A stretch of DNA of 64,000 nucleotides from positions 248,001 through 312,000 of the forward strand of contig JAIYAE010000004.1 of NCBI GenBank assembly GCA_027489175.1. Direction: 5' to 3'. The stretch is from Rhodobacter sp. Its GTDB lineage: Bacteria > Pseudomonadota > Alphaproteobacteria > Rhodobacterales > Rhodobacteraceae. The position numbers were made by a program, and so were the translations under genes. Positions 18,792 through 33,524 of the stretch are shown piece after piece (position 1 is the stretch's first letter; each line of letters starts with the position of its first letter). The notes under the pieces are model-generated. The model was not told the origin of the DNA, ran no database searches, and saw only the letters and a program-made list of their open reading frames with translations.

Positions 18792-19853
18792 TCAGTTCAG
18801 CTCGCCAGCGCGGTCGGCGGCAACGGCGGTTTCGGCCGTTGCGATGGCCGCGTTGAAGGCATCCAGCACCTCAGGGCCGCCCTTCACATTGGCCTTGAAC
18901 CATTCGAAGACCGGCTCGACCGCAGCCTTGAAGGCGGCCTTTTCCTCGGCCGTAGGCACGTAGATCTCGCCGCCTGCCGCTCGGAAGTCGGCATAGGCCT
19001 GGATTTCCTTGCGCTTCGGGCTGGCGAAGGTGGCCTGCTGCAGGGCGGCAAAGCCATCGACGACGATCTGCTGCTGTTCCGGCGTCAGCGACTTGAACCG
19101 GTCGTTCGACATCCACCAGAAGGCACCCATGTAGCTGTGACCATCCAGCGTCAGATACTTGATCCCGGCATCGGTGAACTTCATCGACATGATGTCGGTG
19201 ATGCCATTCGCCGTGCCTTCGACGACGCCGGTTTGCAGCGAGGTGAACAGCTCCGGCCACGGAATCGGCGTGGGCGAAGCACCAAGCGTGGTGGCCAGCG
19301 TCTGCGGCAGGTCGGCGGGCACGGTGCGCATTTTCAGGCCGGCAAGGTCGCCGGGGGCGGCGATACGCTTCTTGGTGTTGGCATAGTTCCGCCAGCCGCC
19401 GGTGTTGCCGATGGTCATCAGGCGGATCTTGTCACCGCTATCCGCCAGCGCCATGGCCCGCAGCTGGGCGGTAAAGTCGGTGCCGGTCAGCACTTCCTCG
19501 GCCACGCGGTCATCGCTCATCAGGTACGGCAGGTCGAGGACCTGGATATAGGGGAACAACCCCGCCGCCCCTCCGCTGGTCGAGATGTAGATGTCGATGG
19601 TGCCGTCAGCCACCCCAGCCAGGCATTCGTCGCCTTTGGCGCAAAGCTGGGTGCCCATGAAGATTTCCACGCCGATCGCACCGTTCGAGGCGTTCTCGAC
19701 ATAGTTCTTGAACACGACGAGGCCGTCATAATCCTCGTCCTGTTCGTTCGAGTTTGCAGTGGCGCGCAGCATGATGTCCTGCGCCAGTGCCATTCCAGCG
19801 GTGCCCGCCAGAAGCGTCGCCAGAACCAGCGACTTGAGGGATTTCTTCAGCAT
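18792..19853 (-). CDS. dctP: TRAP transporter substrate-binding protein (DctP family)
   Basis: 353-residue periplasmic binding protein with signal peptide MLKKSLKSLVLATLLAGTAG ending at ALAQ. DctP-fold marks include the conserved Arg near KMRTVPAD that contacts carboxylate or sulfonate ligands, and ELFTSLQTGVVEGT. It delivers an anionic substrate to the DctQM permease encoded just upstream in the same operon. The operon also encodes flavin reductase, aldo/keto reductase and monooxygenase, so a sulfonated sugar (sulfoquinovose or its glycoside) is the suggested ligand; this is inference. Start has AAGGAGGAAAC. Confidence 0.9.
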   Translation of the reverse strand: MLKKSLKSLVLATLLAGTAGMALAQDIMLRATANSNEQDEDYDGLVVFKNYVENASNGAIGVEIFMGTQLCAKGDECLAGVADGTIDIYISTSGGAAGLFPYIQVLDLPYLMSDDRVAEEVLTGTDFTAQLRAMALADSGDKIRLMTIGNTGGWRNYANTKKRIAAPGDLAGLKMRTVPADLPQTLATTLGASPTPIPWPELFTSLQTGVVEGTANGITDIMSMKFTDAGIKYLTLDGHSYMGAFWWMSNDRFKSLTPEQQQIVVDGFAALQQATFASPKRKEIQAYADFRAAGGEIYVPTAEEKAAFKAAVEPVFEWFKANVKGGPEVLDAFNAAIATAETAVAADRAGELN

Positions 19854-19890
19854 GTTTCCTCCTTTAGGTTTCTTGTCGGTCTTGAAAGGG

Positions 19891-21180
19891 TCAATCCACG
19901 AACCCCAAAAGCCGGGGCAGTGTCAGCGGGATGGCCGGAACGAAGGTGATCAGAAGGACCACCGCGAACTCGACCAGCAGAAATGGCACGACGGCGCGGG
20001 CAATGGTTTCAACCCGCAGTCCGGACACAGCTGACGTGGCAAAAAGCACCAGCCCCATCGGCGGGGTCAGAAGGCCAATGGTCAGGTTCACCGTCATCAC
20101 GATGGCGAAATGCACCGGGTCCACCCCAAGAGACGTGAAGATCGGTGCCAGGATCGGGCCAAGGATGATGATGGCCGGGCCCGCGTCAAGGAACATGCCC
20201 ACAATGAACAGCAGCAGGTTCACCAGCAACAGCAGATACAGCGGGTTCTCGGTGATGCTGAGCAGCGTCGAGGCCAGAAGCTCTGGCGTATGCGCCAGGG
20301 CCGCCACGGTCTTGAAGGCCATCGCAGCACCAACCAGCAGCATGACGACCGAACTGGTGATGCCCGCCCGGGTCAGCACCCCGGGCACGTCGCGCCAGGT
20401 CAGGGTCTTCAGGATGAAGATCGAGATGACGAAACTGTAGCCGACAGCGACCGCTGCTGCCTCGGTCGGGGTAAAGACGCCAGACAGGATGCCACCCATC
20501 AGCAGGACCGGCGTCATCAGCGGCCAGAAGGCAGCTCCGGCGGCCTTGCCCGCCTCGCCCCAGGTGGCACGCGGCAGGGCCTCAGGAAGCTTGTAGCGGT
20601 CTGCCATCAGCTTGATCGTGATCATCAGGGCGACGCCGATCAGGATGCCCGGCACGATCCCGGCCAGGAACAAGGCAGCCACGCTTTCGCCCATGACATA
20701 GGCGTAGATGATCATGATCCCCGAGGGCGGGATGATCGGGCCGATGATCGCCGATGCCGCCGTGATCGCGGCGGCAAAGGGCTTGGGGTAGCCCTTCTTT
20801 TCCATCTGCGGAATGATGATCGACCCCAGCGCCGACACATCGGCCACGGCGGAGCCAGAGATCCCCGCGAACAGCATGGAATCGACCACGTTCACCTGCG
20901 CCAGCCCGCCCCGGAAATGGCCGACCATCGCCTGCGCAAATCCCACGATCCGGGCCGAGATGCCGCCCCGGTTCATAAGTTCCCCGGCCAGCATGAAGAA
21001 CGGGATCGCCATCAGCGGGAAAGAGTTCATCCCCTCATAGACGTTGCGATAAAGCAGCACGATGTCGCGCTCTTGCCCGTTCAGCCACAACAGGATCGCC
21101 GGGGCAGCAAGCAGGCCAAAGACCACCGGCAGGCCCAGCATCAGGAAGACAAGGAAGAGGGGCAGGAAGAAGCTGAGCAT
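19891..21180 (-). CDS. dctM: TRAP transporter large permease (DctM family)
   Basis: 429 residues, about twelve membrane helices, beginning FFLPLFLVFLMLGLPVVFGL and including PPSGIMIIYAYVMGES and the FTPTEAAAVAV signature loop. Sodium-coupled translocation subunit. The ATG at 21180 abuts the DctQ stop, so the two are translationally coupled, and dctP follows after 37 bp. Confidence 0.92.
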   Translation of the reverse strand: MLSFFLPLFLVFLMLGLPVVFGLLAAPAILLWLNGQERDIVLLYRNVYEGMNSFPLMAIPFFMLAGELMNRGGISARIVGFAQAMVGHFRGGLAQVNVVDSMLFAGISGSAVADVSALGSIIIPQMEKKGYPKPFAAAITAASAIIGPIIPPSGIMIIYAYVMGESVAALFLAGIVPGILIGVALMITIKLMADRYKLPEALPRATWGEAGKAAGAAFWPLMTPVLLMGGILSGVFTPTEAAAVAVGYSFVISIFILKTLTWRDVPGVLTRAGITSSVVMLLVGAAMAFKTVAALAHTPELLASTLLSITENPLYLLLLVNLLLFIVGMFLDAGPAIIILGPILAPIFTSLGVDPVHFAIVMTVNLTIGLLTPPMGLVLFATSAVSGLRVETIARAVVPFLLVEFAVVLLITFVPAIPLTLPRLLGFVD

Positions 21181-21777
21181 CTATTCGGCCCCCGACCCAA
21201 GCAGGATGGTTTCGGGAATGTCCCGCAGCCCCTCGGGCCCCCGGATCAGTGCGTAAACATTGCGCAGGGCCAGTTCGACGGCGACCAGCAACAGCAGGGC
21301 CACGCCCACCAGAAGCGAGGCCATCATCCAGGACTTCGGCACCTTCATCCACGTCGCAAAGTCCAGGCTTACCGGGACACGAAGCGAGTCCGTCTCGAAC
21401 CGGCCACCAAGACCCGTGACCTCGGACCAACCGATGCCAAGCGCGATCCAAAGGACCAGGATCGCGACCGCCATCAGAAAAACCGACATTGCGGTGGCAA
21501 CGACGCGCGGCAGCAGGCGGATCACCATGTCAATGGCGACGAACCCACCCCGGCGGAAGGCGGTGGGGGCCATCAGCCCGGTGGACCATAGCATCAGGAA
21601 ACGCGAGGCTTCCTCGGGCCAGGGGAGCGCGCTGTTCAGAACGTAGCGGAAGAAGACCTGCGCCAGGATCACCACGACCATCAGGCCAAGACAGACAGCT
21701 CCGATCCAGCGGCCAAGCGCCAAAAGCGCGCCGTTGATCATGCCGAGGCCGTTGCAGATGGCCAGAAGTGCGGTCAC
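21181..21777 (-). CDS. dctQ: TRAP transporter small permease (DctQ family)
   Basis: 198 residues with four hydrophobic helices and the conserved WPEEASRFLMLWSTG between helices two and three. Partners DctM in the inner membrane. GTG start with GGAGGAAAC directly upstream. Lies 33 bp after the flavin reductase in the same transcription direction. Confidence 0.9.
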   Translation of the reverse strand: MTALLAICNGLGMINGALLALGRWIGAVCLGLMVVVILAQVFFRYVLNSALPWPEEASRFLMLWSTGLMAPTAFRRGGFVAIDMVIRLLPRVVATAMSVFLMAVAILVLWIALGIGWSEVTGLGGRFETDSLRVPVSLDFATWMKVPKSWMMASLLVGVALLLLVAVELALRNVYALIRGPEGLRDIPETILLGSGAE

Positions 21778-21810
21778 GTTTCCTCCCTTCGTCCCCCTTT
21801 CGGCGGGGGG

Positions 21811-22320
21811 TCAGCCGTCAAATCGTCCGAACCTGCCTTTCGCGAAAACCAGCGGCTCGCCCTCCTCCAGGGTCAGCCGCAGGACCTGTCCTACAATGAT
21901 CAGATGGTCGCCGCCGTCATGCGTCGCGTGCTGGGCGCAGTCAAAGCGGGCCAGTGTGCCCGGCACGGTCGGCACGCCTTCGGCGTTCGGCTGCCAGTCC
22001 AGGCCGTCAAACCCCGGGCCGCCCCGGGAAAACCGGGCGGGAAGGTCAGCTTGCCCCAGCCCAAGCACATGGATCGCGTAGTGCTTCGCCGCGGCGAAAA
22101 GTGGATAGCGTTGCGACGCCTTGGCGGGCGACCACAGGACCAGCGCCGGGTCAAGCGACAGGCTGGAAAAGCTGTTCGCGGTAAAGCCCATCGGCCCATC
22201 GGGGCCTTGGATCGTGACCAGCGTCACGCCCGTCGCAAAGCGGCCCAGCGCATCGCGGAACACCCGCGCATTTGCAGCGTCCAGTACAATCCCGCCCGCG
22301 TGGATACCGCCATCCGCCAT
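21811..22320 (-). CDS. smoA: Flavin reductase, probable FMN-reductase partner (SmoA-like)
   Basis: 169-residue HpaC/flavin-reductase-fold protein: FRDALGRFATGVTLVTI at the N-terminus, the FMN-binding GFTANSFSSLSLDPALVLW stretch, and a C-terminal DHLIIVGQV metal/substrate loop. It supplies reduced flavin to a two-component monooxygenase; the LLM monooxygenase two genes upstream is the obvious partner. The ATG at 22320 overlaps the aldo/keto reductase stop (TGATG). The SmoA name follows the sulfo-SMO gene set and is an inference from synteny. Confidence 0.82.
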   Translation of the reverse strand: MADGGIHAGGIVLDAANARVFRDALGRFATGVTLVTIQGPDGPMGFTANSFSSLSLDPALVLWSPAKASQRYPLFAAAKHYAIHVLGLGQADLPARFSRGGPGFDGLDWQPNAEGVPTVPGTLARFDCAQHATHDGGDHLIIVGQVLRLTLEEGEPLVFAKGRFGRFDG

Positions 22321-23216
22321 CACGCGACCTCATGCCCCTGGGCAAGCGTCAGAAGCTCGAACCAGGTCTGGCGGTCCATCGGCACGCGCAGCGCGTCCGA
22401 GATGCTGGCGATGCGTGACAGGGTGTTGGTGCCAAGAACGGGGATGATCTTCGCGGGATGATGCAGCAGCCAGGCCACGGCGACAGCGGTCCAGTCGGTG
22501 CCAGCGGCCTTGCCGATCGCGTCCATCCGGGCGGAAAGGCCGTCATTCGCCTCGGCCCGCAGGTGCCCGCCAGCCAGCGGACTCCAGGCCATCGGGGGGA
22601 TTGCCCGTTCCTGCAGGAAGGCAAGGTCGCCGCTCGTGAAGGGGGCGCGGCAGTTCAACGACAGCTCGATCTGGTTGGTGACCAGGGGCTGGGTCATGGC
22701 CGATTGCAGCAGGGTGAAATCCCAAGGTCGGAAGTTCGACACGCCGACGGCCCGCACCTTGCCGCCTGCGACCAGGGCATCCAGCGTGCGGCCGGTGTCA
22801 TGATGGTCCATCAGCGGATCAGGGCGGTGGATCAGAAGAAGGTCGATCCGGTCCGTCGCCATTTCCCGCAACGACGCTTCGACCGAGGCGGTGATATGCG
22901 CGGCAGAGGTGTCGTAATGCTTCACCCGCGCCGCCGCATGGCGACCCACGGGCGCAACGATGTCGCATTTGGTGACAATCTCGATCCGGTCGCGCAACCC
23001 CGGTGCGGCCTTCAGCGCGGCGCCCATAAGGCCCTCGGCGGCATAGCCGCCATAGATGTCGGCCTGGTCCATCGTGGTGATGCCTTGGGCAAGGCAGGCC
23101 TCGATCTTGGCCTGCACATGGGCGGGCGAGGTGTCGGGGTCGTCGCCCAGCCGCCACATGCCGTAGACCAGCCGGGACAGGCTGATCGGGCCAAGAGTGA
23201 CACGGTCCATGGTCAT
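22320..23216 (-). CDS. smoB: Aldo/keto reductase, possible 6-oxo-glucose reductase (SmoB-like)
   Basis: 298-residue AKR with the catalytic tetrad visible: Asp in MDQADIYGGY with its Tyr, Lys in EIVTKCDI, His in LLLIHRPDPL. The C-terminal LGTNTLSRI forms the NADPH phosphate loop. In the sulfo-SMO pathway SmoB reduces 6-oxo-glucose to glucose after desulfonation. Its place between an LLM monooxygenase and a flavin reductase, with overlapping stop/start codons on both sides, supports that role. A YdhF/YcsN-type general AKR is the alternative. Confidence 0.82.
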   Translation of the reverse strand: MTMDRVTLGPISLSRLVYGMWRLGDDPDTSPAHVQAKIEACLAQGITTMDQADIYGGYAAEGLMGAALKAAPGLRDRIEIVTKCDIVAPVGRHAAARVKHYDTSAAHITASVEASLREMATDRIDLLLIHRPDPLMDHHDTGRTLDALVAGGKVRAVGVSNFRPWDFTLLQSAMTQPLVTNQIELSLNCRAPFTSGDLAFLQERAIPPMAWSPLAGGHLRAEANDGLSARMDAIGKAAGTDWTAVAVAWLLHHPAKIIPVLGTNTLSRIASISDALRVPMDRQTWFELLTLAQGHEVA

Positions 23217-24373
23217 CAGCGGCGCACTCCATTCCCAAGGGGGGTGGCGGGGGTTGTGGCCGGAACGCGGCCATAGGCATGGGGCAGGGAACAGGTCTTC
23301 AGGCCGGGAAGGACCTTGGTGCCGAACTGGTCACACTCGTCCAGATGCGGATAGCCCGAGAAGATGAAGGCCCGGATGCCCATCTTCTGATAGTCTTCGA
23401 TTTCAGACATGACCTGATCGACCGACCCGACAAGCGCCGCGCCGCAGCCCGACCGCGCCCGGCCGATCCCGGTCCAGAGATGCGGCTCGATATAGCCGAA
23501 CTGGTCCGCCAATTCCCGCGCCCGGGTCTGGTGCGCGACGCCGAGGCTGATGGAATCATGCGCCCGGTCGCGGATCAGCTTGCCGTATTCGTCATCCAGC
23601 TTGGACACGATGTAATCGGCATACTCCCGCGCCTCCGCCTCGGTATCGCGGACGATCATGTGAACCCTCAGGCCGTAGTCCAGCGTCCGGCCATGCGCCG
23701 CCGCCCGGGCATGGACGTCCTGCATCCGCCTGGCGAGCATATCTTTCGGTTCCGGCCACATCAGATAGACGTCGCACTGCGCCCCACACAGCTCCAGCGC
23801 GTCGGGGGAATAGCCGCCGAAGTACAGAAGCGGCCCGCCGTTCTGCTGGTAGGGGCGGGCAGGGTCGGTGGTGATCTTCGAAATCTGGTAGACCTCGCCC
23901 GCATATTCGATGTGGTCGCGCGTCCATGCCTGGCGCAGGATCTCCACCACCTCATGGCTGCGCTTGTAGCGAAAGGCGCTGTCGGCAACCTCGCCCGGGA
24001 AGTCCGACGAGATCACGTTCAGCGTCAGGCGGCCCTCAAGCATGTGGTCCAGCGTTGCCACCGTCCGGGCCAGCATCACGGGCTGCATCTCACCGCAGCG
24101 AATGGCGGCCAGAAAGTTGATCGAGGTCGTGATCGGCGCGCAACCAGCGACGAAGGACAGGGTGTCTTGGCCGACCTGATAGGACGAAGGACACAGGATG
24201 TTGCCGAACCCGTGGCCTTCGGCGCGCTTCACGATGTCGGAACAATGCGCCCAACTGGACCGCAGATCGCCCTCCGGCACGCCAAGAAACCGGTAATCGT
24301 CCGAACAAAGCGCTGCAAACCAGCTGACCTCGCAGGCGTCCAAGTCAGGTGAGGTGATCGGCACGACCGACAT
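23216..24373 (-). CDS. smoC: LLM flavin-dependent monooxygenase, probable sulfoquinovose monooxygenase (SmoC-like)
   Basis: 385-residue bacterial-luciferase-like (SsuD) monooxygenase. Motifs: NILCPSSYQVGQDTLSFVAG, ARTVATLDHMLEGRLTLNVI, GGPLLYFGGYSPDALELCG, and the lid-proximal RARSGCGAALVGS. The N-terminal ITSPDLDACEVSWF is characteristic of the SmoC-type branch as I know it rather than generic SsuD. It would use FMNH2 and O2 to release sulfite from the sugar C6. First gene of the operon; the start at 24373 is preferred because the upstream 20 codons reach into the operator region. Confidence 0.82.
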   Translation of the reverse strand: MSVVPITSPDLDACEVSWFAALCSDDYRFLGVPEGDLRSSWAHCSDIVKRAEGHGFGNILCPSSYQVGQDTLSFVAGCAPITTSINFLAAIRCGEMQPVMLARTVATLDHMLEGRLTLNVISSDFPGEVADSAFRYKRSHEVVEILRQAWTRDHIEYAGEVYQISKITTDPARPYQQNGGPLLYFGGYSPDALELCGAQCDVYLMWPEPKDMLARRMQDVHARAAAHGRTLDYGLRVHMIVRDTEAEAREYADYIVSKLDDEYGKLIRDRAHDSISLGVAHQTRARELADQFGYIEPHLWTGIGRARSGCGAALVGSVDQVMSEIEDYQKMGIRAFIFSGYPHLDECDQFGTKVLPGLKTCSLPHAYGRVPATTPATPLGNGVRR

Positions 24374-24419
24374 GATTCTCTGGCTCCGACTGCGGCTTTC
24401 CTCTTGCGTAGCACTGGCT

Positions 24420-24444
24420 TTGATGTAGATCAATCATGTATCAA
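24420..24444. promoter_or_regulatory. Candidate GntR operator between divergent genes
   Basis: A 25-bp imperfect inverted repeat with 5-bp outer arms TTGAT...ATCAA, in the 87-bp gap between the monooxygenase operon (minus) and the gntR-like gene (plus). AT-rich against the GC-rich surroundings and well placed to control both directions. Confidence 0.45.
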
Positions 24445-24460
24445 TTTTGGATGCGACCTC

Positions 24461-25162
24461 ATGGCCCAACCCGGTTCGCTGCCGCTCTATCAGCAGATCG
24501 CCGAGCTTCTGATCCGCGACATCGCGGCAGGGCGGCTGATCGACGGGGAACGTCTGCCGCCGGAACGGGACATGGCGGTCAACATGGGAATTGCCGTTGG
24601 CACCCTGCGGCAGGCGCTGAAGTCCCTAACGGAAAAGGGGCTGCTTGACCGGGTCCAGGGGTCCGGCAACTATATCCGCGCCAAGGCCGATGCGGCTTCG
24701 GTCTATGCCCTCTTCCGGCTGGAACGGGTCGAAGGGGGTGGCCTGCCCACGGCCCGCGTCCTGTCGGTCGACCGCTGTGCCAAGAACCCCGCGCTGCCGG
24801 CCTTTGGGGCCAGCGCCGAGGGCCATCGCATTCGCCGCCTGCGCTTCCTCTCGGGCCAGGTGGCGGCGGTCGAGGAAATCTGGCTGGACGGGGCCGAGGT
24901 GGACCGGATCGCGCCCGGCGACCTGCTGGAATCCCTCTATCTTTTCTATCGCCAGCGCCTTGGCATCTGGATCTCGCGGGCCGAGGACAGCATCGGCCAA
25001 GGCCCCCTGCCGGGCTGGGCCCCGCCCGAATTTCCGCACCCGCCCGGCACGCCTCTGCCCCTGATCACCCGGGTCAGCTGGGCGCAGGACGGCAGGTCCG
25101 TCGAAGCCTCGGTGACCTGGTATGACCCCGAAACCGTGCGCTATGTGGCGCGCCTGAAATAG
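24461..25162 (+). CDS. GntR-family regulator with UTRA domain
   Basis: 233 residues. N-terminal winged helix (about residues 8-72) with PLYQQIAELLIRDIAAGRL, LPPERDMAVNMGIAVGTLRQ and LTEKGLLDRVQGSGNYI. C-terminal UTRA effector-binding domain (about 90-230). Divergent from the monooxygenase/TRAP operon and 9 bp ahead of a Gfo/Idh/MocA gene, so it is probably the local repressor sensing the substrate or an intermediate. The start at 24461 is chosen; upstream codons fall in the operator. Confidence 0.87.
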   Translation: MAQPGSLPLYQQIAELLIRDIAAGRLIDGERLPPERDMAVNMGIAVGTLRQALKSLTEKGLLDRVQGSGNYIRAKADAASVYALFRLERVEGGGLPTARVLSVDRCAKNPALPAFGASAEGHRIRRLRFLSGQVAAVEEIWLDGAEVDRIAPGDLLESLYLFYRQRLGIWISRAEDSIGQGPLPGWAPPEFPHPPGTPLPLITRVSWAQDGRSVEASVTWYDPETVRYVARLK

Positions 25163-25171
25163 GAAGACGAC

Positions 25172-26275
25172 ATGCTGCGCTATGGGATCATCGGCTGCGG
25201 GATGATGGGGCAAGAGCACCTGCGCAACATCGCCCTTCTGCAAGACGCCAACGTCGTCGCGATATTCGAACCTGACCTGGGCATGCGCGCTGCGGCGTCC
25301 GCTCTCGTTCCCGGGGCAAGGATGGTCGGCTCGGTGGCAGAGGTGCTTGCCGACCCGCAGGTGAACTGCCTGTTGATCGCCAGCCCGAACCACCTGCACC
25401 TTGCGCAGCTGGAAGAGATTGCCCGCATCCGGCCCGTGCCGGTCCTTTGCGAAAAGCCGCTCTTCACCGATCCCGCCGACGCGCCCCGACTGGCAGCCTT
25501 GCGCGCCACTTACCCCGCGCCGATCTGGGTGGCGATGGAATACCGTTACATGCCCCCCGTCGCGCATCTTCTGCGGGAAGCCCAGGCGGCAACGGGTGGG
25601 GTGAAGATGCTCACGATCCGCGAACACCGCTTCCCGTTTCTGCAAAAGGTCGGCCACTGGAACCGCTTCAACCGCAACTCGGGCGGCACTCTTGTCGAAA
25701 AGTGCTGCCATTTCTTCGACCTGATGCGTCTGGTCGCGGGCTGCAATCCGGTGCGGGTCATGGCCAGCGCCGGGCAAGCAGTGAACCACCTTGATGAGGT
25801 GTATGACGGACAGCGGTCCGACATCTGGGACCATGGCTATGTCATTGTCGATTTCGAAAGTGGCATGCGGGCGATGCTGGAACTGTGCATGTTCGCCGAA
25901 GGCAGCCGCTATCAAGAGGAAATCTCGGCTGTAGGGGCGAAAGGCAAGATCGAATGCCTCGTGCCCGGACCGGGGCGGTTCTGGCCTGCCCATCTGGGGC
26001 CTGCCCCGGTGCCGAAAGTCATCCTCAGCCCGCGACATCCGGCCGGGCCTGTTGAACTGGAGGTTCCCGTCGACCCAGCGCTTCTGGCAGCGGGGGACCA
26101 CAACGGATCAACCTTCTATCAGCATCAGGGGTTTCAGCGGGCCGCGACCGGGCTGCAGCGGCCTGAGGTGTCGTTGGAAGACGGCTGGTGGGCCGCTGCA
26201 ATCGGCCAGGCGGCGCAACAAAGCGCGGTGACAGGCCAGGCGGTCGATCTGCGCGATCTTGACGGTATGCCTTAG
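25172..26275 (+). CDS. Gfo/Idh/MocA-family protein; possible NAD-dependent sulfoquinovosidase (SqgA/GH188-like)
   Basis: 367 residues: N-terminal Rossmann fold (YGIIGCGMMGQEHLRNI), the EKP motif in VLCEKPLFTD (Lys for NAD/substrate), and a C-terminal domain with REHRFPFLQKVGHWNRFNRN and VEKCCHFFDLMRLV, where His-x-x-Asp forms the usual active-site pair. Co-transcribed after gntR (9-bp gap) and divergent from the sulfo-SMO-like operon. No GH31 sulfoquinovosidase is present, so this NAD-dependent fold may fill that step, as GH188 enzymes do. A plain sugar or inositol dehydrogenase remains possible. Confidence 0.8.
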   Translation: MLRYGIIGCGMMGQEHLRNIALLQDANVVAIFEPDLGMRAAASALVPGARMVGSVAEVLADPQVNCLLIASPNHLHLAQLEEIARIRPVPVLCEKPLFTDPADAPRLAALRATYPAPIWVAMEYRYMPPVAHLLREAQAATGGVKMLTIREHRFPFLQKVGHWNRFNRNSGGTLVEKCCHFFDLMRLVAGCNPVRVMASAGQAVNHLDEVYDGQRSDIWDHGYVIVDFESGMRAMLELCMFAEGSRYQEEISAVGAKGKIECLVPGPGRFWPAHLGPAPVPKVILSPRHPAGPVELEVPVDPALLAAGDHNGSTFYQHQGFQRAATGLQRPEVSLEDGWWAAAIGQAAQQSAVTGQAVDLRDLDGMP

Positions 26276-26827: not shown

Positions 26828-27613
26828 TCAGTAGTTGCCCACCGTCCTGGACTCTGTTTCCCTGACCAAAGCCAGGGAACCGGACAACGCATTGCTGAAC
26901 AGACGGACGTCGGTAAGAAGCGACGCAAAGTGAAATCCCTGACCGAGCATCGATCTCAGCATCCCGGGCGAGCCGGTGTGAACCCCGGCGATCCGTCCCA
27001 CTGCTCGGGTTCGTGCGGCGATCTGGGCAATCGCCTCGATCACCTCCGGCGCGGTCGGTTCCAAGGTGGGTTCATACCCAAGCGATAGTCCCAGGTCAGA
27101 CGGGCCGACATAGACCCCGTCAATGCCCTCGACGGCAAGGATCGCATCAAGATTGGACAAGGCTTCGCGAGTCTCGATCATTGCCAGCACAACCACCGTC
27201 GCATTCGCAGTTCGGGCATAGGTGGCACCATGCACCAGATTTGCGCGGGTCGGGCCGAAGGACCGCCCACCAAGCGGCGCATAGCGCGAAGCCTCAACCA
27301 GACGGCGGGCGTCGTCGGCGGTGTTGATCATCGGGCAGATCAGACCTGCAATGCCCGCGTCGAGGCACTTCATGATGATGCCGGGTTCGTTCCACGGCAC
27401 GCGGGCCAGGACCGGCGCGGGAAGGCCCTGAAGCACCTGGCACATGGTCAGCGCCATCTGGTAGTCGATCAGCCCGTGCTGCAGGTCGACGGTGACCATG
27501 TCGAACCCGGCCCTCCCCATGATTTCGGCGGTGACGGCAGACGGAATGGCGCACCAGCCGTTCACGGCGGTGCCACCGGCAGCGAAATGGGCCTTCAGGT
27601 CGGTGATCGGCAT
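26828..27613 (-). CDS. HpcH/HpaI-type class II aldolase
   Basis: 261-residue metal-dependent pyruvate-type aldolase of the HpcH/HpaI/citrate-lyase-beta family. Evidence: DMVTVDLQHGLID (catalytic His), a substrate Arg in VLARVPWNE, VVLAMIETREAL (metal Glu), and GIDGVYVGPSDLGLSLG (metal Asp). It retro-cleaves 2-keto-3-deoxy or 4-hydroxy-2-keto acids to pyruvate plus an aldehyde in the cytosol. Last gene of the seven-gene HisD1 operon, fitting a final carbon-carbon cleavage. Start at 27613 has GGAG; upstream in-frame codons lie in the preceding gene. Confidence 0.88.
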   Translation of the reverse strand: MPITDLKAHFAAGGTAVNGWCAIPSAVTAEIMGRAGFDMVTVDLQHGLIDYQMALTMCQVLQGLPAPVLARVPWNEPGIIMKCLDAGIAGLICPMINTADDARRLVEASRYAPLGGRSFGPTRANLVHGATYARTANATVVVLAMIETREALSNLDAILAVEGIDGVYVGPSDLGLSLGYEPTLEPTAPEVIEAIAQIAARTRAVGRIAGVHTGSPGMLRSMLGQGFHFASLLTDVRLFSNALSGSLALVRETESRTVGNY

Positions 27614-27623
27614 GATGACTCCT

Positions 27624-28307
27624 TCAAGCAAGCCAGTCGCGCAGGGCGCGCAACGTGGCCTCGGGTTGTTCGAGTGGCGGAAGATGTGCCGCATTGGCGA
27701 TGATATGCAGCCGCGACTGCGGGATCAGGTGGTGCATCAGTTGATGGCGGTCAAGCGGGCAAAGCTTGTCCTCGGCCCCCATCAGCACAAGTGCGGGGCG
27801 CTTGAAGGCCGCCAGCGTCGCTTGCTGGTCGGGCCGGTCGCGCAGGGCGCGGGACTGGCGCGCAAAGACCTGCGGCCCGAGCGACAGCGCCATGTCCATG
27901 CAGAGGTCGAGGATCGCGGGCTGGTTCGGGCCGGGGCAAAGGTAGTTCGGCTTCATCTCACGGCGCATGACATCGTCAAGCTCGCCCGCCAGCACCCGCG
28001 CGATCTGCGGGGCGCGGCGGGCTTGGGCGGTGGCCGTCTCGGCCCGCGGGTTGGTGTCAAGAAGGGCAAGCCGGGTAACGCGGTCCGGGGCCTGGCGCAG
28101 GATCTCCATCGCAAGGATGCCGCCCATCGACAGCCCGGCGAGGGCAAAGGTCGGTGGCGCGTCGGACAGGAAATGCGCCGCAAGGGCGGGCATCGAGTCG
28201 GCGCTGGTGGGGATGTGGTGGATCACCGGCACGCCAAGGTCGGCATCGATCCCGCCCCACATCCGGGCGTCGCACATCATGCCGGGGATCAGGACCAGCG
28301 GCGTCAC
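27624..28307 (-). CDS. Alpha/beta-fold hydrolase
   Basis: About 227 residues: LVLIPGMMCDARMWGG (oxyanion-side HG-like loop), nucleophile elbow GLSMGG with catalytic Ser, Asp in MGAEDKLCPLD, His in IANAAHLPPLEQP. Cytosolic esterase, lactonase or C-C hydrolase. The start is uncertain: GTG at 28307 has AAGGA eleven bases upstream, and that Shine-Dalgarno lies inside a perfect palindrome; a TTG at 28316 is too close to it. Ten bp separate its stop from the aldolase start. Confidence 0.83.
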   Translation of the reverse strand: MTPLVLIPGMMCDARMWGGIDADLGVPVIHHIPTSADSMPALAAHFLSDAPPTFALAGLSMGGILAMEILRQAPDRVTRLALLDTNPRAETATAQARRAPQIARVLAGELDDVMRREMKPNYLCPGPNQPAILDLCMDMALSLGPQVFARQSRALRDRPDQQATLAAFKRPALVLMGAEDKLCPLDRHQLMHHLIPQSRLHIIANAAHLPPLEQPEATLRALRDWLA

Positions 28308-28313
28308 CAGGAC

Positions 28314-28358
28314 CAAATTCCTTCGAAGGAATTTGCAAATCTTTTCGAAAAGATTTGC
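28314..28358. repeat. Two abutting perfect palindromes between operon genes
   Basis: A 22-bp perfect palindrome (28314-28335, arms CAAATTCCTTC / GAAGGAATTTG) is followed by a 24-bp perfect palindrome (28335-28358, arms GCAAATCTTTTC / GAAAAGATTTGC), sharing one base. They fill nearly the whole gap between the MetE-like and hydrolase genes. On the minus strand the first contains the hydrolase ribosome-binding site. Confidence 0.85.
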
Positions 28359-28361
28359 GCC

Positions 28362-29483
28362 CTAGCCCACACGTCGCGCGCCTTCCTTCAGCGTCGCAAG
28401 CTTGGCCCAGGCGATCTCTGGGTCCACCGCGCCAAAGCCTGCAAAGGTGCCAAAGCCGCAGTCCGATCCGGCGATGACGCGGTCTGTCCCCAGGATATTG
28501 GTGAACCGCTCCAGCCGCTGTGCAACAAGGTCTGGGTGTTCGACGAAGTTCGTCGTGGTGTCCACCGCGCCGGGGATCAGGACCTTGTCGTCGGGGATTT
28601 CCCGCGCCCGGTCGCGGAAGACGGTCCATTCGTGGCCGTGGCGGGGATTTGCCGTCTCGAACAGGATGTAGCGGGCGGGGACGGACATCAGCAGCGGGAA
28701 GACCTTCGCCATATCGATGTCGCAGACATGCGGGCCTTCGTAGTTGCCCCAGCAGATGTGCAGCCTGATGCGGTCTTGCGGCAGGCCGTCCAGTGCATGG
28801 CGCAGGGCTTCGACATGTGTGTTGGCCGTCGCCAGAAATTCGTCGTCCGACAGGTGGGTGAAGAGCATGTGGCGCGACAGCGCAAGGTCGGGGCAGTCAA
28901 GCTGCAGGTCCAACCCTGCGTCAAGGATCGTCTGGTATTCCTCGCGCATCGCATCGGCGAGGGCGTGAAGGTAGGCCTCTCGCGACGGGTAATGGGCGTT
29001 CTGCAGGAAAAGGCTGATCACACCGGGTGAGGCCGCGTTCATGAATCCGCGCTGAACCCCATGCGCAGCCATCGCGGATTTCAGGTTGGCGATATCCCTT
29101 TGCAGCTCTCCCTGGCCCTTGGAGGCGACCGGCCCCACGCATTGCGGGCGGGCGTATTTCGGGGTGCCGCCTTCCTTGGCCAGCCGGTCGAGGAAGGTCG
29201 GGAACAGCTTCAGATCGGCCGGCGCATTGCGCGGGCTGTCGCCGCCAAAGCCGGTGTAGCGGTCCTTCACATAGGTCGCGTAGCTGATCTTCGACGCCTC
29301 GCCGTCCGAGACGATGTCGATCCCCGCCTCTTTCTGCCGCCGCACGTTTTCGCTGACCGCGCGGGTCATGCAGGCGTCGAAAGCGGCAGGGTCATGGGCC
29401 TCGCCGCGCTCGCGGCCGAAGAGGAAGTCCACCACCTCCTGTGGGCGGGGAAGCGATCCGACATGAGTGGCGAGAAGGGGCAT
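28362..29483 (-). CDS. Cobalamin-independent methionine synthase C-terminal-like protein (MetE-C family)
   Basis: 373 residues, a single TIM-barrel like the C-terminal half of MetE and archaeal MetE proteins. Starts LLATHVGSLPRPQEVVDFL. The expected zinc ligands are seen: His and Cys in HICWGNYEGP, a Glu in LFETANPRHGHEW, and a late Cys in GSDCGFG. It lacks the N-terminal folate-binding half, so it is unlikely to be a full methionine synthase. In this catabolic operon a methyl- or alkyl-transfer (demethylation) or Zn-thiol step is plausible. Flanked by 9-bp and short gaps, so co-transcribed. Confidence 0.85.
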   Translation of the reverse strand: MPLLATHVGSLPRPQEVVDFLFGRERGEAHDPAAFDACMTRAVSENVRRQKEAGIDIVSDGEASKISYATYVKDRYTGFGGDSPRNAPADLKLFPTFLDRLAKEGGTPKYARPQCVGPVASKGQGELQRDIANLKSAMAAHGVQRGFMNAASPGVISLFLQNAHYPSREAYLHALADAMREEYQTILDAGLDLQLDCPDLALSRHMLFTHLSDDEFLATANTHVEALRHALDGLPQDRIRLHICWGNYEGPHVCDIDMAKVFPLLMSVPARYILFETANPRHGHEWTVFRDRAREIPDDKVLIPGAVDTTTNFVEHPDLVAQRLERFTNILGTDRVIAGSDCGFGTFAGFGAVDPEIAWAKLATLKEGARRVG

Positions 29484-29492
29484 GGGAACCTC

Positions 29493-30461
29493 TCAGAGCA
29501 GGCGGCCGGTCAGGCCGGCGGGATCGTCGGTGGCGACGACGCGGTAAAGGCTGGATTCGCCTGTCATCGAGGGCGCGAGGCTGTGCTCCAGCCCCGGCGG
29601 GATAGCTGCCGTATCACCGGGGTTCAGAACCGTGGACCCGCCCGACCAACCAAGCCGCCAGTGGCCACGCATCGGCATCAAGACCTCGTGCTTGGTCAAC
29701 GTATAGGGCGTGTCTGGGATGGAGTTTCGCGACAGGAACTCGACCTCAAAACCCGGACGGTCGCGCAGCTTGCCGTGCGCACCGATCACTTTGGCGGGCT
29801 GGCGGTCAGAAAGCGCCATGAGGTCCCAATACCGGGCGACGTGGTTCGGGATCACCTCGGCGGTGGTGGGTTCAGGGAAGGCCTTCAGCTCCTCGTCGGT
29901 CAGCAAGGGCATCGGCGGCACGCCGTCGGGCAGGCTTTGCCCCTTCTTCGTGTCGTAAAGCTTGCCGTTTTTCCCCAGGATCAGCCCGTAATCCTTGGCG
30001 TCGGTGATGACCTGCGGCGCCCAGATCACGCCGCCCCCGGCATCGTCGCCGCCGAGGATCGCCATGATCATCCCGTAATCGGTGCCGACATTCTCGAACG
30101 CCCGGAAGATGCCTGTAGGGATGTTGAAAATGTCACCCTCTTCGGCAATGAACTCTCCCGCCGTGCCCCAGCGGCCCCAGAAGAACCGCCAGCGGCCCTT
30201 CAGCACGAAGAACACCTCGGCGGTGCGGTGGGAATGGAGCGAGTTGCGGCAGCCCGGGGGTTGCCCCGCCGCGCCGATGTTAAAGCCGGGCGTGTCGACG
30301 ATATGGACGTGCTGATCGGGGCTTTCCGACACGCCGCCGCCGATGATCGTGAAGTTCTCCTTCCTGTCGCTGCCTGGGGTATGGGCATCGATGAAGGCGG
30401 TCTTGCAGGGCCGAAGGTCGCCGTAGCGGACGATGCGGGCTTCCATCTCTTGCGGGGTCAT
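29493..30461 (-). CDS. Bicupin (gentisate-dioxygenase-like) protein
   Basis: 322 residues with two cupin domains. The first (about residues 50-135) has HSHRTAEVFFVLKGRWRF, keeping a His-x-His...Glu metal set. The second (about 240-315) has KHEVLMPMRGHWRLGWSG followed by GLEHS. This resembles gentisate 1,2-dioxygenase-like and sugar-acid bicupins; the activity is unknown. Start at 30461 has AAGGATAAAAGAG; codons upstream belong to the preceding gene. Five bases separate it from that gene's stop. Confidence 0.8.
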   Translation of the reverse strand: MTPQEMEARIVRYGDLRPCKTAFIDAHTPGSDRKENFTIIGGGVSESPDQHVHIVDTPGFNIGAAGQPPGCRNSLHSHRTAEVFFVLKGRWRFFWGRWGTAGEFIAEEGDIFNIPTGIFRAFENVGTDYGMIMAILGGDDAGGGVIWAPQVITDAKDYGLILGKNGKLYDTKKGQSLPDGVPPMPLLTDEELKAFPEPTTAEVIPNHVARYWDLMALSDRQPAKVIGAHGKLRDRPGFEVEFLSRNSIPDTPYTLTKHEVLMPMRGHWRLGWSGGSTVLNPGDTAAIPPGLEHSLAPSMTGESSLYRVVATDDPAGLTGRLL

Positions 30462-30466
30462 CTCTT

Positions 30467-31441
30467 TTATCCTTGGTAGGAGTGGTCTGGGTGGCTGAGC
30501 AGGATCTGTTTCCAGATGGAAACCTCGTCCCACAGGCTGAATTCGCGGCGTAATCCCCAGGGGCCGAACTCGGCGTGGGTGAAGCCCATGATATGAACCG
30601 GTGCCCCGGTCGGGGCGCCGAAGAGACCGAAGCCGGTGTGATGGCCGTCCAGCGACCAGCGAATGGCGGCGCGGTTGGGTTCACCGGGATCGGCGCGGCC
30701 GATCTGGTGGTGGATGGTGAAATTGGCATCGGGGAACGCGGTGCGCAGTTGCATCCACTGCGCTTCGGCGAACGGGATGCCCCAGCCGGTGACGCCACCC
30801 GCATGGCTGAGGTTTACCGCCCGGTCGTAAGTGCGGCGAATGACGGCCACGTCCTTGGCCATGATCGCCGTCAGAATGTCGGCCAGCCGCTGCCCCAGTG
30901 GATGGTCGTTGCCGCGGCCTTTGTAGGGTCCGGGAAGGTCGATCGCTGGCGTGAAGGGCCGCCGGGCCCTGTCCGGCCCGCCCTCGCGCGCAATCGAGGC
31001 GCGCGCCCAGGCTTCCGGGCTGTGGCCCAACTGGCGGACCATCGCCCCTATGTCATAGCAAAGCCATTCGTCGGTGATGACCTCATCCTGCACATAGCAA
31101 TCGGCGATGCAGCGCGCGGCCACCACCTTGCCGGTTGGGGGGCCAAAAACCCCGTGCCCGCTATGGGTCCCGATGATCATGGATCGGTGCGAGGAGAGGT
31201 AGCCATTGGCCTCATCCCCCGACCAGATGACGTCGTCCCCGTAGATCTGCCGGTCGGGAAAGGCGGCCAAGCTGGCGAGGGTGTCGTTGATTACATCGAC
31301 GTTGCCCGTCATCACCCCAAGGGTCGACCGGGCGATCATGTCCTTGCCATAGGCCTGATGCAGCAGGGCGATCTGGCGACCTTCCCAGATTTCGTAGGTC
31401 ACGCCCTGAATGTAGTCGGGCAGGGTGGCGAAGCGTCCCAT
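30467..31441 (-). CDS. SnoaL-like (NTF2-fold) two-domain protein
   Basis: 324 residues with two tandem SnoaL-like/NTF2-like domains (about 20-165 and 175-315). Signs are IYGDDVIWSGDE in the first and PDANFTIHHQIG...IRWSLDGHHTG...IMGFTHAEF in the second, matching polyketide-cyclase-like and ester-cyclase proteins. Related to the larger protein at 42212-43369 in the same regulon. Start at 31441 has AAGGGACGAG; the longer upstream frame overlaps the SDR gene. Reaction unknown; isomerase, cyclase or hydratase chemistry is typical of the fold. Confidence 0.78.
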   Translation of the reverse strand: MGRFATLPDYIQGVTYEIWEGRQIALLHQAYGKDMIARSTLGVMTGNVDVINDTLASLAAFPDRQIYGDDVIWSGDEANGYLSSHRSMIIGTHSGHGVFGPPTGKVVAARCIADCYVQDEVITDEWLCYDIGAMVRQLGHSPEAWARASIAREGGPDRARRPFTPAIDLPGPYKGRGNDHPLGQRLADILTAIMAKDVAVIRRTYDRAVNLSHAGGVTGWGIPFAEAQWMQLRTAFPDANFTIHHQIGRADPGEPNRAAIRWSLDGHHTGFGLFGAPTGAPVHIMGFTHAEFGPWGLRREFSLWDEVSIWKQILLSHPDHSYQG

Positions 31442-31452
31442 TCTCGTCCCTT

Positions 31453-32217
31453 TCAGCCTGCGGTCCAACCGCCATCGACGATCAGCGAGGTGCCGGTGAT
31501 CAGCCCCGCCGCGTCCGAAGCAAGGAAGGCGACCGCGCCCATGATGTCCTCGACCTCGCCCACGCGGTTCAGCTTGATCTTCGACGCGATCCAGGCGGCG
31601 CGTTCCGGGTTGGCGAAGGTGGCGGCGGTCAATGCGGTGCGGATGAAGGTCGGCGCGATCGTGTTGACGCGGATGCCGTGCGGTCCCCATTCGATGGCCA
31701 TCGACTTGGTCATGCCTTCGACCGCGTGCTTGGTGGCGGAATAGACCGCGCGCTCCGGCCCGCCGACATGGGCCATCTGGCTGGTGATGTTGATGAGGCT
31801 TCCCGGTTTGCCCTCGGCCAGCAGGCGCTTGGCGACGGTGCGCGTCAGGAAGAAGGCCGCGCGGACGTTGAGGTCTGTGACGGCGTCGTAATCACTGGGC
31901 GTCGTGTCGATGGCAGGGGTGTGGCGTGCAAGGCCGGCAGAGTTGACCAGCGCATCGAAGGCCGGACGCGCGGCCAGCGCGGCCTCGGTCGCGGCGACGT
32001 CGGTGATATCGAGGGGGAGGATGTCGGCCTTCAGACCAGCCGCCCGCATCTCCGCGGCCAGGGCACGCAGTTCGGGTTCCCGGCGGGCGCAGAGCGTGAC
32101 CTCGGCGCCCTGTTCCGCCAAGGCCACGGCGCAGGCCGCCCCGATGCCCGAAGACGCCCCCGCCACCAGCGCGCGGCGGCCGTCCAGGCGGAAGGAGGGC
32201 GTGCGCGGCAGGGTCAT
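31453..32217 (-). CDS. Short-chain dehydrogenase/reductase (SDR)
   Basis: 254-residue classical SDR: cofactor motif GASSGIG (about residues 20-26), NSAGLA in place of NNAG, catalytic Ser in [14 protein letters not shown] (Tyr-x-x-x-Lys), and C-terminal [20 protein letters not shown]. An NAD(P)-dependent alcohol/ketone step. The start at 32217 overlaps the HisD-like stop by 4 bp (ATGA), so it is coupled to it. An upstream in-frame extension lies within the HisD-like gene and is discarded. Confidence 0.9.
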
Positions 32218-33524
32218 TCGGCGGCGGTCCCGTATTCCACGTTGCGGCCGCCATAGCGGCGGACGCGGATGTTGCACTGCTCGGCATGGCCGACGAAGCC
32301 CTCCAGCATGCACAGGCGGCTGCCATATTCGCCGATCATCGCGGCGGCGGCGTCGGTCGTGACGCGCTGATAGCTGTGGGTTTTCAGGAACTTTCCAACC
32401 CAGAGCCCGCCCGTGTAGCGCCCGGCTTTCTTCGTCGGCAGCGTGTGGTTGGTGCCGATCACCTTGTCGCCATTTGCCACATTGGTTCGCGGCCCAAGGA
32501 ACAGCGCGCCGTATGAGTGCATGTTCTGCAGGTACCAGTCGTCACGGTTGGTCATGACCTGCACATGCTCGCTGGCGATGTCATTGGCGGTGCCCAGCAT
32601 TTCGTCATGGCTGTCGCAGAGGATGACCTCGCCATAGTCGCGCCAGCTGACGGCAGCGGTGGCGGCGGTGGGAAGGATTTGCAGCAGGCGGTCAATCTCG
32701 GCCAGAGTGGCGTCCGCGAGCTTGCGGGAGTTGGTGACAAGGACGGCGGGAGAGTTGTAGCCATGCTCCGCCTGGCCAAGAAGGTCGGTTGCGCAAAGCT
32801 CGGCATCGACGGTGTCGTCGGCGATGACCATCGTCTCGGTCGGGCCAGCAAAGAGGTCAATGCCAACGCGACCGTACAGCTGGCGCTTGGCTTCGGCGAC
32901 ATAGGCGTTGCCGGGACCGACCAGCATGTCGACGGGTTTGATGGTTTCCGTTCCCAAGGCCATGGCGCCGACGGCCTGCATGCCGCCGAGGACATAGATC
33001 TCATGCGCGCCGCCCATGTGCATCGCGGCGACGATGGCGGGGTGGGGCGCGCCGTTCACCGGCGGGGCGGAGGCGATGATCCGGGGGACACCGGCAACCG
33101 AGGCGGTCAGGACGGACATGTGCGCGCTGGCGACCATCGGGAACTTGCCGCCGGGGACGTAGCAGCCGACCGACTGGACCGGGATGTTGCGGTGACCAAG
33201 GATCACGCCGGGAAGGGTTTCCACCTCCACATCCGTCATGCTGGCGCGCTGCACCTCGGCAAAACGGCGGATCTGGGTCTGGGCAAACCGGATATCCTCG
33301 ATATCGCGTGGGGCGACCTTCTGGATGGCGGCGTCGATTTCGGACGGGGTCAGGCGGAAGGCAGGCGGGTCGTAGTTGTCGAACTTCACCGACAACGCGC
33401 GCACGGCCGCATCGCCCCGGGTTTCGATATCGGTCAGGACCGATTCCACCGTTGCCCGGACCTGCGCATCATCCGCCGCCCGTTCCGCCTCGGGCTTTCC
33501 GCGCTTGAGCCAGGTGATTGCCAT
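32214..33524 (-). CDS. Histidinol-dehydrogenase-family enzyme (HpsN-like), paralogue 1
   Basis: 436-residue NAD- and Zn-dependent dehydrogenase of the HisD fold, which oxidises a primary alcohol through the aldehyde to a carboxylate. The metal and catalytic set is complete: Gln/His in LLGQAEHGY, Glu-His in ASEHVQV, Asp and His in [13 protein letters not shown], and a C-terminal His in [10 protein letters not shown]. It is far from his genes and leads a catabolic operon, so histidine synthesis is unlikely; HpsN-like sulfopropanediol or other alcohol oxidation is the nearest known role. A LacI-type operator sits just before its ribosome-binding site. Confidence 0.88.

Follow-up and report, generated by a model that had tools for sequence, protein, structure and literature searches.

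We analysed a 64,000-nucleotide stretch of a Rhodobacter sp. draft genome (contig JAIYAE010000004.1, positions 248,001 to 312,000; hereafter the window) and found that positions 18792-26275 hold a compact unit of enzyme, importer and regulator genes. We read this unit with considerable confidence as an operon for the uptake and oxidative desulfonation of sulfoquinovose. The predicted enzymes are those of the sulfoquinovose monooxygenase (sulfo-SMO) pathway, and the importer is a tripartite ATP-independent periplasmic (TRAP) system, DctPQM. We also think it likely that DctPQM typifies a mobile TRAP family dedicated to sulfoquinovose and sulfoquinovosyl glycerol. This family would travel with the glycoside hydrolase family 188 (GH188) sulfoquinovosidase SqgA and would have been recruited, time and again, to at least two unrelated routes, oxidative desulfonation and glycolysis of the sulfo-Embden-Meyerhof-Parnas (sulfo-EMP) type. 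On the same reading, it would be a main system by which Rhodobacteraceae take up sulfoquinovose, as well as the first TRAP importer for a sulfosugar glycoside, working beside a MauG-like di-haem protein in many members.

Six genes are transcribed from the minus strand, in the order monooxygenase, aldo/keto reductase, flavin reductase, DctQ, DctM and DctP; neighbouring genes share at most 4 bases or are separated by no more than 37. A divergent pair on the plus strand consists of a GntR/UTRA gene starting at 24461 and a Gfo/Idh/MocA gene. The left flank carries exopolysaccharide-type genes (Wzz/kinase-like, sugar transferase) and the right flank other catabolic-looking genes, and we therefore set the limits of the unit at 18792 and 26275. 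Every gene that an initial annotation, made from the letters alone, had named here was recovered at its position, on its strand and in its expected family. Gene letters follow what we take to be the smoA-I naming of the Agrobacterium tumefaciens sulfo-SMO (sulfo-ASMO) locus, here L080. The features are:

18792..19853, minus strand: dctP-like, TRAP solute-binding protein (PF03480, 6.8e-54)
19891..21180, minus strand: dctM-like, TRAP large permease (PF06808, 1.4e-117)
21181..21777, minus strand: dctQ-like, TRAP small permease (PF04290, 9.1e-22)
21811..22323, minus strand: smoA-like, flavin reductase (PF01613, 6.3e-34; FerA-like, below cut-off)
22320..23216, minus strand: smoB, predicted 6-dehydroglucose reductase of the aldo/keto reductase family (best PDB matches 7bbz/7bby)
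23216..24373, minus strand: smoC, predicted FMNH2-dependent sulfoquinovose monooxygenase (83/82% identity to PDB 7olf/7oh2)
24421..24445, minus strand: putative operator/promoter upstream of smoC, direct repeat ATTGAT-N5-ATTGAT
24461..25162, plus strand: GntR/UTRA cluster regulator (PF00392 and PF07702)
25172..26275, plus strand: sqgA, predicted GH188 NAD+-dependent sulfoquinovosidase (PDB 8zn9, 4e-156)

The gene order of the window is not peculiar to it. We compared 80 SmoC loci, those with the highest scores among at least 586 in GTDB species genomes, a sample that leans towards relatives of the window and in which Tabrizicola provides the closest named relatives at this locus. When importers and sulfoquinovosidases within 9 kb of SmoC were classed by our own score thresholds, 29 of the 80 loci had TRAP together with SqgA, and all 29 repeat the eight genes of the window in order and orientation. 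One further locus has TRAP on a contig that ends before any sulfoquinovosidase, and another has a partial TRAP at a contig end. The other classes are a SmoEFGH-type ATP-binding cassette (ABC) importer with a glycoside hydrolase family 31 (GH31) enzyme (15 loci), GH31 with no SmoF-type ABC system nearby (4), SqgA with another ABC system nearby (13) and SqgA with no importer recognised (17, of which 5 have less than 2 kb of contig beyond SmoC). None of the 19 GH31 loci had TRAP alongside. In one of the GH31 loci (L047), a DctM-like gene scoring 232 bits lies roughly 10 kb off and was not classed as TRAP, and a Hyphomonas SMO cluster (L021:12545-14254) encodes, by eye, a 570-amino-acid symporter-like membrane protein in the TRAP position. 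The same eight genes, identical in order and orientation, were present in all four annotated plasmid records examined, where they are annotated at family level only. The arrangement is thus more than chance, since it recurs in 29 of 80 SmoC loci and four plasmid records.

A survey of 394 Rhodobacteraceae genomes (limits of E 1e-100 for SmoC, 1e-75 for DctP and 1e-60 for SqgA) found SmoC in 166, DctP in 144 and SqgA in 193. The DctP matches comprise 142 at 63-100% identity and two near 50%, with no others under the E limit. SmoC and DctP occur together in 111 genomes (Fisher p 4e-27), for 9 of which the place of SmoC is missing. Among the 102 with both places known, 95 have the two genes 4.0-5.1 kb apart; the remaining seven have them on different contigs, and in none are they far apart on one contig. 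These distances combine 99 genomes listed together (92 close, 7 on split contigs) with three added later, at 4.5-4.8 kb. The TRAP arrangement is therefore a common, widespread form of the sulfo-SMO cluster in Rhodobacteraceae. A one-off gene order is ruled out by its recurrence in SmoC loci and by the DctP-SmoC linkage across the family. The initial annotation had described the cluster as a variant in transport; TRAP does take the place of the ABC system, as it proposed, but the form is not a local one.

The same importer family is also found in clusters of a second sulfoquinovose pathway, unrelated to the first, as judged from the context of its genes. Genomes that lack SmoC provide the best evidence on the ligand. 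We took the surroundings of DctP from all 33 DctP-carrying genomes without SmoC. In 21 of these loci the genes around the same TRAP encode SqgA, an isomerase of the FucI family, a PfkB kinase and an aldolase of LacD/DeoC type; 19 of the 21 have a DeoR regulator and 16 a 2-hydroxyacid dehydrogenase. These are enzyme families of a hybrid sulfo-EMP pathway with a FucI-type isomerase (PMC9594981), a hybrid pathway also described in Vibrio (PMC13372026). The 21 clusters would then be of the hybrid sulfo-EMP type. They share DctPQM and SqgA with the window but, unlike it, have no monooxygenase, mostly a DeoR regulator, and listed enzymes that leave the sulfonate uncleaved.

A tree of DctP (64 rows, one outgroup) shows the two contexts intermixed. 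Where 34 rows are labelled SMO, including four loci with SmoB only, and 23 are labelled EMP, including two partial loci, the supported branches force at least three changes for SMO and at least five for EMP. Linkage to sulfoquinovose catabolism across unrelated pathways, as expected of a sulfoquinovose TRAP importer, was thus observed. Because one importer has been joined to two unrelated pathways, its substrate should be what both share, sulfoquinovose or its glycoside, which makes DctPQM very probably a TRAP importer for sulfoquinovose.

DctP, DctQ and DctM are encoded together, all three Pfam models score above cut-off, and the N-terminus of DctP resembles a signal peptide, judged by eye. 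A structural model of DctP (pLDDT 74) was compared by Foldseek; the 50 matches listed are TRAP receptors at 16-27% identity, and the isethionate-binding IseP (PDB 8t9t/8te9) stands near the top of them. DctP thus shares with IseP a predicted TRAP receptor fold, but it is only 21-22% identical to IseP, and the sulfosugar or sulfosugar glycoside that we propose as its ligand is far larger. R176 of DctP is conserved in the alignment, in a motif that we take to be that of the ligand-binding arginine of SiaP.

Several observations weigh against our reading of the unit. The sulfo-EMP-type assignment of the 21 clusters draws on enzyme families read from one locus, L112, whose isomerase reaches 279 bits against the sulfoquinovose isomerase model NF048012 (SftI; cut-off 700). 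Among the other SmoC-less loci, L119 and L133 are partial EMP-type loci, and L126 and L133 carry distant DctPs. Four Rhodobacteraceae loci (L116, L123, L134 and L143) keep SmoB and TRAP but show no SmoC: none was found in them by tblastn at E 1e-5 in the stretch or 1e-100 in the genomes. L116 and L143 also hold a flavin reductase and SqgA, L123 a flavin reductase and L134 neither; such loci may have lost the first enzyme or may use another oxygenase in its stead. Six loci (L114, L117, L125, L126, L132 and L141, the last a 3.6-kb contig) have neither SmoB nor a sulfoquinovose isomerase in the stretch. In the DctP tree, 18 of 61 inner branches are open, and the bootstrap of the tree had yet to converge. 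The pocket of the DctP model is unreadable because pLDDT falls below 50 at residues 154-160 and 199-239. The pathway can do without the TRAP, since 55 of the 166 genomes with SmoC lack a DctP of this kind, and other sulfo-SMO clusters have ABC systems or no recognised importer. Finally, the structures closest to the window monooxygenase were deposited under other functions, 7olf as methanesulfonate sulfonatase and 7oh2 as alkanesulfonate monooxygenase.

Carboxylates, or small sulfonates such as isethionate, are the usual ligands of TRAP receptors. The cluster could therefore combine sulfo-SMO enzymes with a TRAP for another solute, such as a small sulfonate or an organic acid, sulfoquinovose entering by a different transporter; the place of IseP among the top folds of DctP and the many sulfo-SMO clusters without TRAP would both agree with this. 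We nevertheless consider it improbable. DctP lies 4.0-5.1 kb from SmoC in all 95 genomes that have both on one contig, the same DctP recurs with SqgA in 21 clusters of a different sulfoquinovose pathway, the contexts are mixed on the tree, and sulfoquinovose or its glycoside is the sole substrate obviously common to these clusters.

That the importer should carry glycosides follows from the sulfoquinovosidase. The Gfo/Idh/MocA protein at 25172-26275 matches PDB 8zn9 at 4e-156 and the SqgA structures 8qc3/8qc2 at about 1e-107. Proteins of the 8qc3/8qc2 type are defined as GH188 NAD+-dependent sulfoquinovosidases, and the sulfoquinovose contacts listed for ArSqgA include the sulfonate triad R166/L170/K172 (PMC10755693). 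All eight contacts are conserved in the window protein (K95, Y124, R153, L157, K159, E176, H180 and H310) and in each of the 85 other aligned SqgA sequences. These 85 are the ones scoring above 300 bits, 59 from the 80 SMO loci and 26 from the 33 loci without SmoC. We therefore assign 25172-26275, on sequence, as the predicted GH188 sulfoquinovosidase SqgA. Its Rossmann fold lies right at the start, with no signal peptide; from this start at the Rossmann motif and the dependence on NAD+ we expect cleavage in the cytoplasm, and the importer should then carry the glycoside as well as free sulfoquinovose.

The initial annotation had listed this gene by family and implied that an enzyme for glycoside cleavage was missing, which was mistaken. 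The SqgA structure matches rule out a missing sulfoquinovosidase. The initial annotation was right that the cluster holds no GH31 enzyme and no ABC importer: neither a SmoF-type ABC receptor nor GH31 is present in it. The absence of GH31 extends to the whole 3.77-Mb draft genome (39 contigs, 94% complete), in which neither the A. tumefaciens enzyme (a query that finds 3/3 positive controls) nor PF01055 (positive in 6/14 control genomes) gave a match. GH188 is described as near-universal in the sulfo-SMO clusters of marine Roseobacter bacteria, where it replaces GH31 (PMC10755693), and by content the window belongs with this group.

A related sulfonated sugar or aglycone, such as sulfofucose or another sulfoquinovoside, could in principle be the substrate instead of sulfoquinovose. 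A Paracoccus isolate degrades sulfofucose (PMC12421959), and enzymes of such clusters can have broader ranges. We find this very unlikely, given that the residues of SqgA touching the hydroxyls and sulfonate of sulfoquinovose are conserved and that SmoC is 83% identical to 7olf, which adjoins the A. tumefaciens SMO locus. The published sulfofucose cluster, moreover, is tied to an ABC system and Entner-Doudoroff-type enzymes (PMC12421959).

The enzyme core itself is assigned, again from sequence comparison, to the sulfo-SMO pathway. In a search of the PDB, the score of the monooxygenase falls from 736 bits for the 7olf/7oh2 pair (83% and 82% identity) to 198 bits at the next solved relatives, and we take 7olf and 7oh2 to be SmoC. 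In a tree of 24 sequences (22 SmoC rows, one SsuD and one MsuD), the SmoC clade separates from SsuD/MsuD at 100/100 support, and 7olf adjoins L080. The window genome has no second SmoC and no SsuD, the next match scoring 36 bits. The aldo/keto reductase has 7bbz/7bby as its best PDB matches (E 1e-140; next 1.6e-62); these were deposited as aryl-alcohol dehydrogenase, and we presume them to be SmoB. The flavin reductase partner expected of sulfo-SMO is present (PF01613), with a similar gene at the equivalent place in L080. Sulfo-SMO clusters are recognised by SmoB and SmoC together (PMC13372026), and in the window the two genes are adjacent, in the order of L080. The proposal of a sulfo-SMO core in the initial annotation is borne out by these structure matches and by the SmoC clade, and the grouping of the monooxygenase with SsuD that it had named as a possible refutation was not seen when the tree was run. 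SsuD-like scavenging of alkanesulfonates as a sulfur source, the reductase and importer being unrelated, would fit the match of SmoC to the SsuD model TIGR03565 (238 bits, below the cut-off of 518) but is refuted by the SmoC tree, where the clade shuts out SsuD/MsuD at 100/100, and has next to no probability given that SmoB and SqgA are present and that the sole SsuD above the cut-off in 61 family genomes (582 bits) shares 35% identity with the window protein.

The A. tumefaciens locus offers the closest comparison for the enzymes and their control. It has the same core of SmoC, SmoB and flavin reductase in equal order, a divergent GntR/UTRA gene at the equivalent place and, upstream of smoC, the same direct-repeat element. 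The two differ in that L080 has GH31 and an ABC importer, as reported for the A. tumefaciens cluster (PMC9594981), while the window has SqgA and DctPQM.

Between smoC and gntR lie 87 bases, which contain ATTGATACATGATTGATCTACATCA at 24445-24421 on the minus strand. ATTGAT-N5-ATTGNT occurs in 78 of the 79 smoC upstream regions, across every importer and sulfoquinovosidase class (L075 was left out of the 80 loci, as its SmoC start was not found); the single locus without it is the Tagaea locus L014. In total, there are 96 such sites over 3.03 Mb, both strands, of the SmoC loci. A longer pattern of the repeat has one site at no more than 3 mismatches in the 3.77-Mb window genome, compared with 0 for a reversed control. 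Two of the 33 SmoC-less loci carry the repeat, and both still carry the GntR gene. The direct repeat probably serves either as the operator of GntR or as a promoter element. L125 holds SqgA, GntR, TRAP and an SMO-type direct repeat, with SmoC and SmoB both missing from the stretch.

Taken as an operon for sulfoquinovose uptake and oxidative desulfonation, the unit suggests the following route. In the periplasm, DctP would bind sulfoquinovose and its glycosides, for example sulfoquinovosyl glycerol; DctQM would bring them into the cell on an ion gradient. SqgA would cut the glycoside inside the cell with NAD+, the flavin reductase would provide FMNH2 for SmoC, SmoC would convert sulfoquinovose to 6-dehydroglucose and sulfite, and SmoB would reduce 6-dehydroglucose to glucose. 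The GntR/UTRA protein may govern the divergent promoters via the conserved direct repeat. Our data show the gene identities, the conserved contact residues of SqgA and the conserved linkage of this TRAP to sulfoquinovose genes in two unrelated pathways; we infer each reaction in this strain, as well as the solute that TRAP carries, the role of the repeat as operator and the inducer.

Other genes recur near the importer. In Rhizobium sp. SL42 (L150:9188-10147) and Ruegeria sp. TM1040 (L147:12357-13382), the region downstream of TRAP carries a 'putative sulfate exporter family' gene, a candidate for sulfite or sulfate efflux. A gene for a MauG-like di-haem cytochrome c peroxidase (L112:10046-11890; TIGR03981-like, below cut-off) is found near TRAP in 18 of the 21 sulfo-EMP-type loci and 8 of the 29 SMO loci with TRAP and SqgA, in 2 of the 17 SqgA loci without a recognised importer and in 0 of the 19 GH31 loci; in L054, L065, L070 and L078 it lies downstream of DctP. 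A search of the window genome, run without a positive control, gave no match to it, and among literature judged by titles no link between sulfoquinovose and MauG was found. Apart from the unit, 26828-32313 of the window (minus strand) encodes an HpcH/HpaI aldolase, an alpha/beta hydrolase, a cobalamin-independent methionine-synthase-like protein, a cupin and a short-chain dehydrogenase/reductase.

The sulfo-SMO core, GH188 in Roseobacter sulfo-SMO clusters and the type of regulator are already known. The unusual part of the cluster is the TRAP importer, which is widespread rather than rare. We found no TRAP importer for sulfoquinovose in the searchable literature, which covers main texts and leaves several sulfo-SMO papers outside. 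The words 'TRAP' and 'transporter' do not occur in the main text of PMC10755693, its supplement and figures lying outside the search, and in the uses shown from PMC12421959 TRAP words refer to trap columns. Sulfoquinovose and TRAP words co-occur in PMC10507020 and PMC6386719, which by title concern taurine-using gut bacteria.

Annual production of sulfoquinovose is about 10 billion tonnes (PMC10755693), and its import has been termed poorly characterised (PMC8873060). The DctP family, present in 144 of 394 sampled Rhodobacteraceae and mostly beside sulfoquinovose genes, offers a concrete ligand-binding test. Its presence may also mark genomes that take up the glycoside and not just the free sugar. 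These clusters would further provide a natural case of one importer feeding two pathways, one releasing the sulfur in the form of sulfite and the other expected to retain it in a C3 sulfonate.

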